From Planococcus plakortidis (GTDB lineage Bacteria; Bacillota; Bacilli; Bacillales_A; Planococcaceae): DNA of 64,000 nt. A program made the translations under genes and the position numbers. The stretch is from assembly GCF_001687605.2 (NCBI RefSeq), contig NZ_CP016539.2:2634501-2698500 (forward strand). The letters run 5' to 3'. The notes under the pieces are model-generated. The model ran no database searches. It was not told where the DNA came from and saw only the letters and a list, made by a program, of their open reading frames with translations. This document shows positions 16,397 through 51,904 of this stretch, in pieces; positions within the stretch are counted from its first letter, which is position 1, and each line of letters opens with the position of its first letter.

Positions 16397-17536
16397 TTAT
16401 GGTTTCAAAATGACTTTCGTACATTCGTCTTCGTGGTCGTTGAATATCCGGTAAGCTTCGCTCGCTTGTTCGAGCGGCACGATGTGGGAGATGATTTCAC
16501 GCGGGTCGAATTCGCCTCTTTCGATTTTGTCGAAAAGCATTGGCATCAAATGGATGACCGGTGCTTGCCCCATCTTCATCGTCACGTTGCGCTCGAACAG
16601 GTTGCCCAGCGGGAATTGGTTATAAGTCAATCCGTAAACGCCCGTCAATTGGATGGTCCCGAATTTACTGACGGCATCTTTCGCGATATCGATCGCGCTA
16701 AGCGTCCCGCCTTGCAGCATCAGCTTTTGTTGAACGGCTTCCGCTGTCGATTTCTTGCCGTCCATCCCGACGCAATCGATGACGACACGCGCGCCGCCTT
16801 TGGTGATTTCATGGATGAGCGCCCCTGTGTTGTCGTGTTTACTGAAGTCAACAATCTCCACATTATTCATCTTTTTCGCTTTTTCCATCCGGTATGGCAA
16901 TTCATCGACGGCAATGACGCGCGCCGCCCCTTTCATCCAGGCAAACTTCTGGGTCATGAGCCCGATCGGCCCACAACCAAGAACAACGACCGTGTCGCCT
17001 TCTTTGACTCCCGCGTTCTCGACACTCCACCAAGCGGTCGGCAGTACATCCGACAGGAAAAGGACCTGCTCATCTTCGAGCTCCGAAGACTCCGGAATGA
17101 CCAATGGCATGAAATTGGCGTATGGCACACGCAGATATTCAGCCTGCCCCCCTGAATAATCGCCATAGCGCTCTGTCAAACCGAAATAGGCGCCCGTATC
17201 GAAATGGGGATTGCCGTTTGAATTGTCGCATTGGCTTTCCATTTCATTGGAACAATAAAAACAATGGCCGCAACTCACATTAAATGGAAGGACGATGCGG
17301 TCGCCCTTTTTCACTTTCGTGACGTCCGGCCCGACTTCTTCTACGATGCCCATCGGTTCATGGCCGATGACGGTATCCTTCGTCGTGGGCAATGCCCCTT
17401 GATAAATGTGCAGGTCTGTCCCGCAAATAGCAGTGGACGTTATCTTCACGATAATGTCATCACGTTTTTGGATTTCCGGATCTTTTACCTCTTTTACTTG
17501 CATATCTTTTGTCCCTTGGAACGTTACTGCCTTCAT
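16397..17536 (-). CDS. zinc-dependent alcohol dehydrogenase (MDR family)
   Basis: A 379-residue medium-chain dehydrogenase. The catalytic-zinc motif STAICGTDLH (Cys about 38) and GHEPMGIVEEVG, the structural-zinc cluster CGHCFYCSNEMESQC (about 91-105) and the Rossmann GCGPIG (about 187) are all present. The long form with YGLTYNQFPLGNLFERNV resembles glutathione-independent formaldehyde dehydrogenase-like enzymes (AdhB type). It oxidises or reduces an alcohol/aldehyde with NAD(H); substrate not determinable. Monocistronic. Confidence 0.9.
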   Translation of the reverse strand: MKAVTFQGTKDMQVKEVKDPEIQKRDDIIVKITSTAICGTDLHIYQGALPTTKDTVIGHEPMGIVEEVGPDVTKVKKGDRIVLPFNVSCGHCFYCSNEMESQCDNSNGNPHFDTGAYFGLTERYGDYSGGQAEYLRVPYANFMPLVIPESSELEDEQVLFLSDVLPTAWWSVENAGVKEGDTVVVLGCGPIGLMTQKFAWMKGAARVIAVDELPYRMEKAKKMNNVEIVDFSKHDNTGALIHEITKGGARVVIDCVGMDGKKSTAEAVQQKLMLQGGTLSAIDIAKDAVSKFGTIQLTGVYGLTYNQFPLGNLFERNVTMKMGQAPVIHLMPMLFDKIERGEFDPREIISHIVPLEQASEAYRIFNDHEDECTKVILKP

Positions 17537-17638
17537 GACTTTCCCTCCCGTTTAGTGATATCAGAATATTTCTCTTATTCCCTCTTTCTGACAGTGCAAA
17601 CACACATTTTCAATCGCGGCCATCTTCCCGACGATAAA

Positions 17639-17666
17639 GAGCGGATCCCCATTAAGAGATCCGCTC
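17639..17666. repeat. hairpin A1, distal flank of element A
   Basis: GAGCGGATC pairs with GATCCGCTC around a 10-base loop. It matches hairpin A2 (18095-18122) in the same orientation at 27 of 29 aligned bases and marks the far end of element A. Confidence 0.8.
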
Positions 17667-17669
17667 CTC

Positions 17670-18092
17670 AGGCTGTCGAGATAGTTAAAAGCCGTATTTT
17701 CCGAAGCTTATTGCTCGCTTTCCGCGGGGCGGGAATCGAGCCTCCTCGTCACTAAAACCGTTGCTCCCACATCTGCTCAACCCTCACTATGTTCGGGCAT
17801 CGCAAAAGAGATCTGCAAGCAGATGCGTCGCAAATGAATGTGCTCAGCTAAGCTTCGCTCATTCATTGCCTGCGGGGTCTCTCAAACCCGTCGCTTCGCT
17901 GCTCCCGCAGGAAAGATAAGGTCGACCTACGGGAGACATTATCTTTGCGAAGTAATGCGCAGCATTATTGAGCAGAAAGGTTTACGAGCAAACACTTCTC
18001 CAAATACTTAAACAGGTCATTGATTTTTGAATGTCAAAAAGATGGTCAGCTTTTAATTTAATAACCGTCTAATAGACTTCTTCAACACTCTG
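17670..18092 (-). repeat. dispersed element, copy A (423 bp)
   Basis: Read on the minus strand it begins CAGAGTGTTGAAGAAGTC and ends TCTCGACAGCCTG, the same ends as copy B at 49448-49755. It shares long, nearly identical blocks with copy B, including a 35-base hairpin (17912-17946) identical in both copies and the tail GCGGAAAGCGAGC ... AAGCTTCGGAAAATACG. Relative to copy B it carries roughly 110 extra bases (about 17755-17870). No convincing protein frame. It lies between two near-identical hairpins. The gap 17537-18135 holds this element and its flanking hairpins and no gene. Confidence 0.85.
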
Positions 18093-18094
18093 AA

Positions 18095-18122
18095 GAGCGG
18101 ATCCCCATTAATGGATCCGCTC
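18095..18122 (-). terminator. hairpin A2, terminator of the beta-propeller gene
   Basis: GAGCGGATCC pairs with GGATCCGCTC (10 bp), 13 bases after the stop of the beta-propeller gene. It lacks a T-run because element A starts two bases beyond it. Near-duplicate of hairpin A1. Confidence 0.7.
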
Positions 18123-18135
18123 CTATCCATCGTCT

Positions 18136-20283
18136 TCATTGCAGCGGCAAAGTGCCGAGCGCTTCGAAATCCGCCAAATGATAACTTGTGATTTCCGCAT
18201 TGGCTACGGTATATAAAGCATCTTTCGCATAGACCAGCCGCTGGACCGAGGTATTCCAGTCTTCGTAAGGCTGGCTTGCCGGTTCGGTCAAATCTGCCGA
18301 TAACTCGATGCCTTGCGGCGTAATAGAATAAACCAGAGCCCCTTCGGCCTGGAATTCAATATACTCCGTGCCGTCGCCTACGTAAATCGATACCGGAAAC
18401 CCGAACAAGTTTTTTTGTTCATGGCGGAACAATGCTTTGTGGTCATACTGCAAGGCCGAATAGGTGCCCGGGCCGCCGATGATTTCCGTATCTGTTTCCT
18501 GTGGATCACCCATGTCACTGACATCAAACAGCGAGAGTTTCATCCCGCCCGTCACGATGCGCGGCTCGCCTCCCCCCTTGACCGGCTCGATTTTCGTATC
18601 GTACCCGAAACCGATCAAATGATTTTCATCGAGAGGATGCAAATAGTTGGAAAACCCAGGGATTTTTAATTCCCCGAGCACTTCCGGGGCTGCCGGATCG
18701 GAAACATCGATGGCAAAGAGCGGATCGGTCTCCCGGAAAGTCACCATATAGGCTTTGCTGCCGATAAAGCGGACCGAATAGATGCGTTCACCCGGCGCCA
18801 AGTTTTCCACTGAACCGGCCTGTTCCAATTGTTCATCCAAAATGAATAAATGGTTTTTCGGTTCGGAAGCCGGTGCCCAGGCAACCCCTTCAGTTGTCGC
18901 CAAGCGGAAATGGCCTTCGAATTCATCCATGGAAAACTGGTTCAACAAGGCTCCCTGGACACGGGCCGAAGCGATGAATTCCACCGAGATGCCGTCCAAT
19001 CCGAATTTGAAGATTTCCGTATCCGCTTGCTGCGGTACCCAAAGTGCCGTGTCCTCAAACTCCCCTTCAGCCGTCTCGAAAGCGGAAGCAGTCAAATAGA
19101 GATGCTGCTCGTTCATGTAAAGCTGCTCATTGCCGCCCAGAAAGCCTTTGGTGGAAATTTCATTGGAACCGGGCGTATCCAGGTTGATGGAGGCAATGAC
19201 GCTATAGCTTCCTTCCATCGTTCCTGGCAGGATGGTCAAGTCTTCGTATGGCAAGGGTCCAAGCTCTCCGCCATCCTTGGAATCGAACAGCCTTGGCCGC
19301 AGCTCCATATTCGGCTGCTCCTCCAATATCCAGTAGTTCGGGAACACGTTGCTGACATAACGGAGGATGCCACCCGAAAACCTCGCATTATTGAATGTAC
19401 CTTCGTTGCCGAATTCACGGATCAGTTGAGGATTGCCAGGCGAAGCTACATCGTAGAGAGAGACGACCGTGATGCCGGAGTATGGCATGAAGCTTTCCAT
19501 TTCCGCATCCGCTTCGGTTCCCATGAGCGAAAAGCGGCTTGAAATGACAGCAAGCGTATCGCCCGATAGGAATAATCTTTCGGGATACATTTCCCCGTCG
19601 AACTCCAGGGCTGCCGCAAGTTCCATATTTCCAGGGTCCCTGATGTCGGAAATCATCACGCGCGATTCACTGATGGAATATAAATAATCGCCGTCCGTTT
19701 GCACAATATCCCCTTCATCAACGCCTTCGACTTGGTTATTGGTCGTCGAATGGTCGCCGCCCCCCATTCCTCCCGATTCGCCTGAAGCGCTGTCTTCCGC
19801 TTCATCGACCCCTTCACCGAAACCTCTGTAGAACGGGTTATCTTTTTGCAATTTGAGCAGGCGGGTAAAATAAGTACGCAGCTCTTCTTTCCCGGCCAAA
19901 TTCTGGACTTCGTCTTGTATCGTGAACTCGAGCTGGTTTGTCGACAGGGTTTTCAGGAAGCTGCTGGCTAAAGCGGATTTGGTGACATGAAGCGTATAAT
20001 CCCCACTTTCGATGTCCGGAACTTCAAGTGTCCGGCCGCCATTCGCCAACTGCATATCCATCTCGAGCTTTTGGCCATCCGCATCCGTAAGATAAACGGC
20101 ACCTTTCTCGATTGCATCCATATCGAGCGGCGCTGAGAAGTTCGCCCGCCATCCCGATTCCGATAACGCTGTGGACGAACCGCTGATTGCCACATTTTCC
20201 GTCAGCAAGGCAAATGCTGTGCCGGAAAACACCAAAAGAATCGCTGCGATCCACCAAGCTTTGCTCCATTTCACGAAAACCAC
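18136..20283 (-). CDS. secreted beta-propeller domain protein
   Basis: A 715-residue exported protein. One N-terminal hydrophobic helix (about 8-27; signal peptide or anchor) is followed by an Ig-like SbsA-type region (about 30-125), then the marker NNQVEGVDEGDIVQTDGDY (about residue 185) of the beta-propeller family PF09826 and a repeat-rich propeller to the end. Function in Bacillales is not established; cell-surface location is likely. Start GTG 20283, with GTG 20274 an alternative better placed for GAAAGG. Its terminator region is occupied by element A. Confidence 0.85.
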   Translation of the reverse strand: MVFVKWSKAWWIAAILLVFSGTAFALLTENVAISGSSTALSESGWRANFSAPLDMDAIEKGAVYLTDADGQKLEMDMQLANGGRTLEVPDIESGDYTLHVTKSALASSFLKTLSTNQLEFTIQDEVQNLAGKEELRTYFTRLLKLQKDNPFYRGFGEGVDEAEDSASGESGGMGGGDHSTTNNQVEGVDEGDIVQTDGDYLYSISESRVMISDIRDPGNMELAAALEFDGEMYPERLFLSGDTLAVISSRFSLMGTEADAEMESFMPYSGITVVSLYDVASPGNPQLIREFGNEGTFNNARFSGGILRYVSNVFPNYWILEEQPNMELRPRLFDSKDGGELGPLPYEDLTILPGTMEGSYSVIASINLDTPGSNEISTKGFLGGNEQLYMNEQHLYLTASAFETAEGEFEDTALWVPQQADTEIFKFGLDGISVEFIASARVQGALLNQFSMDEFEGHFRLATTEGVAWAPASEPKNHLFILDEQLEQAGSVENLAPGERIYSVRFIGSKAYMVTFRETDPLFAIDVSDPAAPEVLGELKIPGFSNYLHPLDENHLIGFGYDTKIEPVKGGGEPRIVTGGMKLSLFDVSDMGDPQETDTEIIGGPGTYSALQYDHKALFRHEQKNLFGFPVSIYVGDGTEYIEFQAEGALVYSITPQGIELSADLTEPASQPYEDWNTSVQRLVYAKDALYTVANAEITSYHLADFEALGTLPLQ

Positions 20284-43272: not shown

Positions 43273-43387
43273 CTCTTATCTTTCAGCGACGCAAATGCGC
43301 GCTGTAGGATTTAGCACCTTTCCAGACATGAGCCTGTCGGTTGCCGGGCATCGTAGGGCCTATTCCCTCCGCCTCTCGTGATAAGAG
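43273..43387 (-). ncRNA. SAM-I (S-box) riboswitch, metY-metX leader
   Basis: Minus-strand aptamer closed by CTCTTATC/GATAAG with GAGAGGCGGAGGGA, GCCCGGCAACC and AAGGTGCTAAATCC, the hallmark S-box segments. SAM binding frees the downstream terminator to form and stops metY-metX transcription. Confidence 0.95.
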
Positions 43388-43573: not shown

Positions 43574-43690
43574 TTTCTTATCCAGAGAAATCGAGGGACA
43601 GGCCCTATGACGTTTCGGCAGCAGATTCGCAAATCCGCGAAAACTGTGCTAATTCCTGCAAATGCTTCGGCATTTGGAAGATGAGAATGA
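43574..43690 (+). ncRNA. SAM-I (S-box) riboswitch, metNPQ leader
   Basis: Plus-strand aptamer: TTCTTATCCAGAGAAATCGA, GGGACAGGCCCTATGACG, TTTCGGCAGC, GTGCTAATTCCTGC and closing GATGAGAA. Sequence differs clearly from the metY S-box, so this is not a recent duplication. Confidence 0.93.
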
Positions 43691-47996: not shown

Positions 47997-49214
47997 ATGA
48001 TCGAAAACCTGATCGAACGCCTGATTCGCTACGCCAAAATCGACACGCAATCCGATTTTGAAAATGACGCTACACCTTCTACACCCGGACAATGGGATCT
48101 GCTCAACGAACTGGAGAAAGAAATGAAGGATATCGGCTTAGAGGAAGTTGAAGTGGACGAACACGGCTATTTATTCGGCACATTGCCGGCGAATACGGAA
48201 GAGCAGCGCCCTGTCATCGGCTTTCTCGCACATGTCGATACCGCGACCGATTTCACCGGAAAAGGCGTCAACCCACAGCGCATCGAACATTATGACGGGA
48301 AAGATATTCCACTAAGTGGCAAAGTGACGATGAAAACGGCTGATTTCCCTGCTTTGCAGAACTACATCGGCCATACCTTGATCACGACAGACGGCACGAC
48401 TTTGCTTGGCGCCGACAACAAGGCGGGAATTGCCGAAATCATGACGGCGATGGAATATTTGATGGCCCACCCTGAAATCGAACATGGCAAGATCCGTATC
48501 GGCTTTACACCTGACGAGGAAATCGGCCGCGGACCGCATAAATTCGATGTCGCCCGTTTCGGTGCAGATTATGCGTATACGATGGATGGCGGGCCGCTTG
48601 GCGAGCTTCAATACGAGAGCTTCAATGCCGCGAGCGCGAAATTGACCGTCCACGGAACAAGCGTCCACCCTGGTTCTGCAAAAGACAAGATGGTCAACGC
48701 CATCACGGTCGCCACACGATTCCAAGCAGAAATGCCATCCCATGAAGTGCCCGAGAAAACAGAAGGCTATGAAGGCTTTATCCATTTGAATAATTTCAAT
48801 GGTTCCGTCGAACAAGCCGTGCTGCAGTACATTGTGCGTGATTTCGATAAGGACAAATTCGAAGCGAAAAAACGCCATATGGAACAAGTGGCCGCAAGCT
48901 TGCAAGAAGAATTCGGGACAGAAGCGATCGAACTCGAACTTGAGGATCAATATTACAATATGCGCGAGAAAATCGAGCCGGTGATGGAAATCGTCGACCA
49001 AGCCGAACAAGCGATGAAAACATTGGACATCGCTCCCGCCATCCTGCCTATTCGCGGCGGCACGGATGGATCCCAATTATCCTATATGGGCTTGCCGACG
49101 CCGAACATCTTTACGGGCGGCGAAAACTACCACGGCAAATTTGAGTTTATTTCCGCTGAAAACATGGAAAAAGCGACTCAAGTGATTGTGGAAGTCGCCA
49201 AAATCGCCAAATAA
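47997..49214 (+). CDS. pepT: peptidase T (tripeptide aminopeptidase)
   Basis: A 405-residue M20B dizinc aminopeptidase that removes N-terminal residues from tripeptides. Metal-site motifs: [10 protein letters not shown] (about 76-85), [12 protein letters not shown] (about 140), [10 protein letters not shown] (about 174) with the catalytic Glu pair, and [13 protein letters not shown] (about 195); [23 protein letters not shown] near the end is PepT-typical. GGAGG precedes ATG 47997. Flanked by repeats on both sides. Confidence 0.95.
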
Positions 49215-49265
49215 TCGGGTTCCCCTATCCGATTCGCTGAAATTGAGTAGTCAAAAATACCGACA

Positions 49266-49383
49266 GTGAAGCGGAAGCCGGCGACTCCTGCGGAAACAGC
49301 GCGAGCCGAAGACCCTGCAGGAGCGTCAGCGACGAAGCGGCTGAGGCCGCGCCCGCGGAAAGCGTCCGACTGGAGCGAAACGC
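49266..49383 (+). repeat. short GC-rich repeat, copy C2
   Basis: Second copy of the C repeat (core 49275-49383), same orientation as C1, immediately downstream of pepT. It continues into a small hairpin (GCTGCCGAG / CTCGACAGC, 49390-49411) whose end TTTCTCGACAGCCT is also the 3' end of elements A and B. Confidence 0.85.
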
Positions 49384-49415
49384 AAAAAAGCTGCCGAGGT
49401 TTCTCGACAGCCTGG

Positions 49416-49447
49416 AAAAAGCAACGGCATCATGCCGTTGCTTTTTT
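49416..49447. repeat. hairpin B1, proximal flank of element B
   Basis: AAAAAGCAACGGCAT pairs with ATGCCGTTGCTTTTT around one base, followed by T: a very strong terminator-like hairpin. Near-duplicate of B2 (49757-49787). Confidence 0.88.
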
Positions 49448-49755
49448 CAGAGTGTTGAAGAAGTCCATTAACCCATTACGAATTAAAAGGAGAATATCTT
49501 TACAACATTCAAAAATCAGTGGTCAAACTAAGTATTTGGAGAAGCGTTCGCTCGTAAACCCCTCTGCTCAATAATGCTGCGCATTACTTTCGCAAAGATA
49601 ATGTCTCCCGTAGGTCGACCTTATCTTTCCTGTGGATCAGCGAGACGACCGAGACCCCGCAAGGCGCGAAGCGACTGAGGAGGCTTGGGCGCGAGCCCAC
49701 GGAAAGCGAGCGATAAGCTTCGGAAAATACGACTTCTTATCTTTCTCGATAGCCT
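49448..49755 (+). repeat. dispersed element, copy B (308 bp)
   Basis: Begins CAGAGTGTTGAAGAAGTC and ends TTTCTCGATAGCCT like copy A (17670-18092, opposite strand). It includes a 35-base hairpin (49594-49628; AAAGATAA/TTATCTTT around GGTCGACC) identical to that in A, a small hairpin TAATGC/GCATTA, and a GC-rich module ending CCCACGGAAAGCGAGC that resembles the C repeats. No protein frame with family similarity. The gap 49215-49829 holds C2, B1, this element and B2, and no gene. Confidence 0.85.
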
Positions 49756-49756
49756 A

Positions 49757-49787
49757 GAAAAAGCAACCGCATCATGGTTGCTTTTTT
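49757..49787. terminator. hairpin B2, terminator of lipA
   Basis: AAAAAGCAACC pairs with GGTTGCTTTTT around GCATCAT, T-rich on both sides. Differs from B1 by one substitution and a three-base deletion. It is the nearest hairpin 3' of lipA on the minus strand. Confidence 0.85.
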
Positions 49788-49829: not shown

Positions 49830-50773
49830 TTAAAATTCGATGCGATCGATTTTTGCGCCTGTCGATTCGACGCCTTTCATGTATTTAATGCGTTTCTGCA
49901 CAGCGGTTTCGTTCACTTGTTCATCTGCATGGTAGGAAGAACGCACCATCGGGCCAGCTTCGCAATGCTTAAATCCTTTTGAGAGCGCGATTTCCTTCAA
50001 TTCCTGGAATTCATCCGGATGGTAATAACGGACGACGTCCAGGTGTTTCAATGTCGGCTGCAAATATTGGCCGATTGTCATGATGTCGACGTTGTGTGCC
50101 AACAAATCATCCATCGCTTCGATGATCTCTTCTTTCGTTTCCCCAAGCCCGACCATGATGCTCGATTTTGTCGGCACATGCGGCGCGATTTCCTTAACCC
50201 GCTTCAGCAATTCCAGGGAACGGTCATATGTCGCTCTCGCCCGGACGCGTTTCGTCAGGCGGCGCACCGTTTCGATATTGTGGTTGAAGATATCCGGTTC
50301 ACTGCTCATCAACATATGCAGGCTTTCGTAATCGCCTTTCATATCGGACGGCAAAATCTCGACAGTCGTTTCCGGCATTTTCCGGTGGATGGCACGCACC
50401 GTCTCTGCAAAGACTGCAGCGCCTCCGTCCTTTAAATCATCACGCGCTACCGCTGTCACGACGACATGCTTCAAGTTCATGATTTCCGTCGATTCGGCTA
50501 CGCGCTCCGGCTCGCCCCAATCCAATTCGTTCGGCAAGCCGGTCTTGACGGCACAGAACCGGCACGCTCTTGTGCATGTATCCCGAGGATCATGAAAGTC
50601 GCAGTGCGGCGCTCGCTCCAACATTCGTGGATATTCGGGCATCTTGCTTCTTCGCATACCGTGTTCAAATTTTTCTCACGCATCAATTTCTTCAGATCAT
50701 TATAGGTTTCGTTCGTGTTCAATTTCACTTTTAGCCATTCGGGTTTACGTTCACGCTGCTTGGTTTTTGTCAT
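49830..50773 (-). pseudogene. lipA: lipoyl synthase, frameshifted
   Basis: Two overlapping frames that together give a complete 314-residue lipoyl synthase, the radical-SAM enzyme that inserts two sulfurs into protein-bound octanoate. Frame one carries [25 protein letters not shown] (auxiliary cluster, CxxxxCxxxxxC); frame two resumes at [10 protein letters not shown] (radical-SAM CxxxCxxC) and continues to the normal C-terminus. Restoring one G to the run complementary to 50582-50584 joins them. ATG 50773 overlaps the lipM stop (ATGA). Real inactivation would force reliance on scavenged lipoate; a sequencing error is equally possible. Confidence 0.88.
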
Positions 50774-51684: not shown

Positions 51685-51709
51685 ATGCAGGCAAGTGGAA
51701 GCATACGTA

Positions 51710-51799
51710 CCACTTCCCTACGCTGGCATGGTCCAGATCAGGTTCAAGGGGTCCAGGCATTCGCCCGTCTCAGCCAGTCAATCCCGGCTCCCCCAGTGG
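51710..51799 (-). ncRNA. TPP (THI-box) riboswitch upstream of lipM-lipA
   Basis: Minus-strand aptamer: closing CCACT/AGTGG, then GGGGGAGCC, GGCTGAGAC, CCTTGAACCTGATCTGG and GCCAGCGTAGGGAAG, all THI-box hallmarks. A terminator follows 25 bases on, then lipM. No thiamine gene lies in this window. Together with an imperfect hairpin further upstream this accounts for the gap 51607-51948. Confidence 0.95.
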
Positions 51800-51904
51800 T
51801 CAGCTATGTATAGTTCTCCTTGAGCTTAACATTGTCCTTAAGAAATCTCAATATACAAAATAATTTTTCTTTCATTTTCATCCATTTATTTAAATTTATA
51901 ACAA

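Follow-up and report, generated by a model that had tools for sequence, protein, structure and literature searches.

The element that lies between two terminator hairpins in the window (the whole stretch of 64,000 nucleotides of Planococcus plakortidis DNA analyzed here) is very probably a MITE mobilized by the transposase of an IS1182 clade with CAG...CTG ends, which would choose its targets by secondary structure, chiefly terminator palindromes. The features of a MITE are all present. The element is short, carries no transposase gene, has inverted ends, occurs in many copies (28 with both ends in its own genome, G000), and is bordered by a target site duplication (TSD) in 50 of the 67 two-ended copies sampled. 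What is duplicated is the hairpin itself. Neither the assignment to IS1182 nor the centering of the duplication on the hairpin dyad was part of an earlier, sequence-only reading of this DNA, several claims of which are taken up below.

The window contains two copies of the element, A and B (Table 1). The hairpins on the two sides of copy A are direct repeats, identical at 30/32 bases when anchored on the element ends; the sequence-only reading had recognized this genuine pair as a slightly shorter match of 27/29 bases. It had also given the element as 423 bp starting at 17670, and although its end at 18092 was correct, the element is 424 bp long and starts at 17669. The terminator hairpin comes after the minus-strand ORF 18136-20283, and the next minus-strand ORF beyond copy A is 16397-17536. 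None of the listed ORFs of at least 80 aa lies wholly within 17669-18092, and no Rfam family reaches its gathering score at the site. Elsewhere in the window, the riboswitches are two divergent SAM riboswitches (43273-43387, minus strand, and 43575-43687, plus strand) and one TPP riboswitch (51698-51804, minus strand). The window has 21 strong hairpins, of which that of copy A is the only one with a nearby second copy, as assessed in direct orientation at ≥78% identity, without gaps and within 700 bp. Copy B escaped this ungapped test because the loops of its hairpins differ by an indel. As had been proposed, copy B is flanked by two copies of a hairpin unlike that of copy A, and the hairpins are therefore a property of each locus and not of the element, different hairpins being found at different copies. 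The order within 49229-49787 is an IS-like end (186 bp, with its terminus against the hairpin), hairpin, copy B, and hairpin.

Table 1. Positions in the window of the two MITE copies, their flanking hairpins and an adjoining IS-like end
Feature	Positions	Strand	Remarks
Hairpin copy 1 of copy A (TSD), 32 bp	17637-17668		AAGAGCGGATCCCCATTAAGAGATCCGCTCCT; 30/32 identical to 18093-18124, anchored on element termini
MITE copy A, 424 bp	17669-18092	+	CAGGCTGTCGAGATAG end at 17669, CTTCTTCAACACTCTG end at 18092
Hairpin copy 2 of copy A	18093-18124		AAGAGCGGATCCCCATTAATGGATCCGCTCCT; just downstream of minus-strand ORF 18136-20283
Probable relic, left end of an IS1182-type IS (or of a shorter repeat sharing that end)	49229-49414	-	94% identity with the L212 query (bases 1-185)
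Copy B hairpin, one side	49415-49447		Indel relative to the loop of the partner hairpin
MITE copy B, 309 bp	49448-49756	-	Between ORFs 47997-49214 (+) and 49830-50657 (-)
Copy B hairpin, other side	49757-49787		Read from the sequence

MITE-matching sequence is dispersed in the genome of origin (3.26 Mb, one contig), where a DNA search gave 65 matches that group into at least 40 loci, a lower bound because 40 of 74 candidates were scored. Both ends are present at 28 of these 40 loci, and the remainder are partial. Genus-wide, 33 of 40 genomes (including that of origin) have matches to a 246-base query. Four loci (L053, L054, L055, and L057) apparently belong to another dispersed repeat that shares a middle module of 90-120 bp with the window MITE, and the MITE family therefore looks mosaic. 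To these 40 loci we added 40 copies from ten relatives, which were among the best full-length matches and are partly orthologous to each other (e.g. L151 and L152). Of the resulting 80 copies, 67 showed both ends and measured 146-464 bp (235-464 bp in 63 of them). As compared by eye, the terminal inverted repeats are imperfect (11/16).

The flanks of these two-ended copies bear out the predicted hairpin duplicates. An end-anchored TSD is present in 23 of 28 copies in the genome of origin and in 27 of 39 in the ten relatives. Its length is 28-38 bp in 47 of the 50 cases (mean 31.0 bp), and its two halves are identical in 16. The duplication of about 30 bp that had been claimed from copy A thus holds, and corresponds to the whole hairpin. 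The 13 remaining loci (12 own, 1 from a relative) fall outside the end-anchored count, since both ends were not found, and one of them, L070, nevertheless has a hairpin repeat. In the 17 two-ended copies without an end-anchored TSD, a hairpin is still seen by inspection at one or both ends of each; reading these sequences suggests that the partner hairpin has decayed, been deleted or overrun, or diverged by indels. At L157 and L168, the partner hairpin beside the MITE is interrupted by sequence with an GGGGCTGTCC-type end, which is known from another IS1182 subgroup. As a control, left and right flanks from two different relative copies were paired, and a score above 15 was reached by 3/613 such swapped pairs versus 28/40 true pairs. 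A fixed-boundary TSD test, since superseded by the end-anchored calling, had placed 17 of the 40 own-genome loci above the null maximum. That test missed the window copy because its hairpins lay inside the query match, and partial loci were missed as well. Mismatches between hairpin copies affect 20/279 loop versus 51/1272 stem positions, a weak difference (p 0.027), and pairing is kept in both copies for 15 of the 51 stem mismatches.

We then compared filled with empty sites, by searching 14 relatives with a query in which the two flanks of each of ten own loci were brought together around a single hairpin. For the copy A locus, a match spanning the junction was found in 10 of the 14 relatives among the matches listed. 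All ten were fetched and all ten have a single hairpin, as anticipated for orthologous empty sites, with no second direct copy above 17/32. The other empty sites fetched are likewise single-hairpin in 8/8 cases (four for L067, two for L052, and two for L032). Together with the hairpin TSDs, these empty sites uphold the earlier proposal of insertion at a terminator. The L067 hairpin site is filled in relatives G138, G136, G137, and G118. The MITE stands one way in G000 and G118 and the opposite way in G137, G138, and G136, with the same hairpin copies throughout; L067, L204, L205, L306, and L307 are thus a single terminator with a MITE in five genomes, in both orientations. The opposite orientations may stem from a local inversion. 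Nevertheless, the presence of both at one hairpin favors repeated independent insertion, and the best reading of these sites is that this hairpin has apparently been struck several times.

A partner for the MITE was sought by transposase searches in the bacterial family, which led to IS1182-type elements. In the same genus, L098 has an IS of 1532 bp, whose termini are CAGCTTGTTGAGAAAC and CAGGCTGTCGAGAAAC, between exact 32-bp copies of a terminator. The IS in L212, in G135 of the same genus, has the ends CAGGCTGTCGAGAAAC and CAGAGTGTTGAGAAAC, to which the MITE end sequences match at 15/16 and 13/16 positions. This IS adjoins a MITE copy, and the two occupy one terminator (L212 1315-3009, continuing in L154), in the order hairpin, IS, hairpin, MITE, hairpin. 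Of the ISs from this genus, those whose ends match best (L098, L211, and L212) have no full-length reading frame. The L212 transposase fragment scores 251 bits against NF033551 (IS1182), under the cut-off of 270, because it is partial. Two intact transposases of 456-459 aa, at loci L110 and L128, come from other genera and score 478.7 and 493.2 bits, respectively, against the same model; both contain PF13751, PF05598, and PF01609 (DDE). It is this score above the curated cut-off, along with the DDE domain and terminal inverted repeats (CAG...CTG), that places the partner ISs in IS1182. No intact partner was found in the genome of origin, which has one broken PF13751 gene and 30 matches to the L212 IS, every one within its first 220 bases. 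The MITE shares closely similar ends with the L212 IS, whose gene is itself broken, and the rule of a hairpin TSD centered on the dyad with the ISs described next.

The ISs duplicate hairpins in the same manner. Two sets of loci were analyzed, which overlap by at least five. In the set from the same bacterial family, 27 of 59 loci (repeat fetches counted once) have the strict CAG-type end pattern, the 59 taking in other IS1182 subgroups and fragments at contig ends. An exact hairpin TSD of 20-52 bp is present in 24 of these 27 two-ended copies (mean 27.8 bp, the one of 52 bp included). Loci with a short transposase (L110-L138) show a hairpin repeat in 22 of 29 cases and lack it in 7. The set from named species, which comprises Lysinibacillus, Ureibacillus, Cytobacillus, Neobacillus, Sporosarcina, Saccharibacillus, and others, consists of the 80 top-scoring stretches out of 548 that were confirmed, a single genome contributing several loci in places. 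Both ends were found in 73 of these 80, no recognizable end pair being present in the other 7, and the TSD is one hairpin of 19-42 bp in 69 of the 73, with identical halves in 64. It is absent in four (L231, L244, L247, and L282); in the first three, one side carries a hairpin, and L282 is bordered by two different ones. At L101 (the same locus as L282), L123, and L125, the IS ends abut two different hairpins, as would be expected if two IS copies had recombined. IS1182 elements with a longer transposase (L139-L149) display best spanning repeats of 9-12 bp, none of them hairpin-like, and none at all for L148; the longest frame, which was the one picked, may not be the transposase at some of these loci. 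Some longer-transposase elements have short inverted A/T arms outside their ends, perhaps left over from a hairpin that was replaced. In a transposase tree with identical proteins collapsed, the longer-transposase elements form a separate clade with the duplication in 0/20, versus 53/69 in the other clade, whose unlabeled rows include untested and recombined copies.

DDE transposases usually leave a short TSD of fixed length. The TSDs described here are both odd and even in length and extend over roughly two turns of the helix or more, and it is their center that is constant. The hairpin dyad is the exact center of the TSD in 42 of 50 MITE copies and lies within 0.5 bp of it in 48; for the ISs, the TSD is dyad-centered in 23/24 (same bacterial family) and 68/69 (named species) cases. 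In the named-species set, the palindrome continues past the TSD edge by at least one pair in 53/69 cases, so the foot of the longest stem does not by itself mark the joining point. There is a strong base preference at and just outside the TSD edges, for A on the 5' side and T on the 3' side, which is weak further inside.

How the hairpin comes to be duplicated can be explained in several ways. We consider it probable, with less assurance than the identity of the element, that this DDE clade acts on the two feet of a hairpin extruded from the DNA, which would make the stagger as long as the hairpin (19-52 bp), and that with its MITEs it constitutes a terminator-homing system that spares the neighboring transcription units. 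The main rival, to which we give a minor but real share of the probability, is that the transposase binds the terminator as a double-stranded palindrome, as a symmetric and flexible dimer, and makes a long staggered cut with no hairpin or cruciform. A symmetric TSD would by itself be compatible with every target of two-fold symmetry, and a sequence cue is still conceivable given the A/T preference at and just outside its edges. However, TSD length is variable in both IS sets, odd as well as even, so there is no fixed distance or helical phase between the two joining points, and there is little base consensus further inside the arms.

Two further explanations were considered. The sequence-only reading had offered, beside insertion, a copying mechanism using the terminator stem. 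Spread by copying seeded at that stem, whether by template switching or by a group IIC intron or other retroelement, agrees with terminators being the targets, and group IIC introns do insert beside terminators. We nevertheless deem it very improbable, as the site yields no Rfam hit at gathering score, the termini are matched by those of a DDE transposon family that leaves the same signature, and a single hairpin carries the element in both orientations. Moreover, such copying is unnecessary because IS1182-family transposons with matching ends show the same duplication themselves. A group IIC intron in particular was considered and rejected, the element having no Rfam match at gathering score and no listed ORF inside. 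Tandem terminators do occur in bacteria, and an element might merely have inserted between members of a pre-existing or chance pair, but this is the least credible reading of all: the 18 empty sites fetched, ten of them at the copy A locus, are all single-hairpin, a second direct copy lies nearby for only one of the 21 strong hairpins, and flank-swapped pairs hardly ever exceed the score that most true pairs pass.

According to the hairpin-attack reading that we prefer as the simplest account, the IS1182-clade transposase would act in trans on the MITE, its targets being chiefly the A-tract/stem-loop/T-tract palindromes of intrinsic terminators. The actual substrate would be cruciform or hairpin DNA, attacked at the two 5' feet of the hairpin, and the 3' ends of the element would be joined at symmetric points flanking it. 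Gap repair would then copy the hairpin to both sides of the element, with the likely benefit that both neighboring genes retain a complete terminator.

Both the family (IS1182) and the target class (stem-loops/terminators) are already known. In the sections available to us, Wan et al. 2017 (PMC5678879) describe IS1272, the relative in the IS1182 family that has been studied best, as targeting stem-loops, often terminators, without a primary sequence consensus; stem-loop replacement was found, with no TSD, and duplication of the whole hairpin was drawn as hypothetical pathway b in the model of their Figure 13. TnSha1 is similarly presented, in the part of Furi et al. 2016 (PMC4923244) available, as targeting hairpins/terminators with partial deletion and no duplication. 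The elements described here resemble both in belonging to IS1182 and in their stem-loop targets, often terminators, but duplicate the whole stem-loop, whereas those delete or replace it without a TSD, as far as these excerpts go. Stem-loop replacement of the IS1272 type was hence rejected for our elements, in which the stem-loop is duplicated and not lost. ISPse1 (PMC3281130) and ISCaa15 (PMC3196728) are likewise IS1182 members, of 1.4-1.7 kb in the tables of those papers, which list a 4-bp direct repeat in contrast to the variable 19-52-bp hairpin TSD. MITEs assigned to ISMac2 (PMC3852290) are also short non-autonomous elements with an IS1182-family partner, but their direct repeats, as the columns read, measure 4 and 0 bp, and hairpin duplication is not mentioned in the portion available. 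IS1182-type transposases are stated, in an extract of PMC12056078, to act with or without target duplication and may recognize DNA structure.

In the partial texts covered by the literature search, no published report of whole-hairpin TSDs was found. The repeat lengths recorded for IS1182 vary widely, and single cases may therefore already be catalogued in ISfinder. As far as we have seen, what appears to be new is that one clade regularly duplicates the whole hairpin, and that the MITEs of this clade are found in terminators. A hairpin TSD of variable length, centered on the dyad in dozens of insertions, makes structure-guided targeting by an IS1182 clade directly testable, and offers natural evidence for the pathway sketched by the authors of the IS1272 study. 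It also provides an example of a transposon that uses terminators as targets while leaving a complete hairpin on each side.
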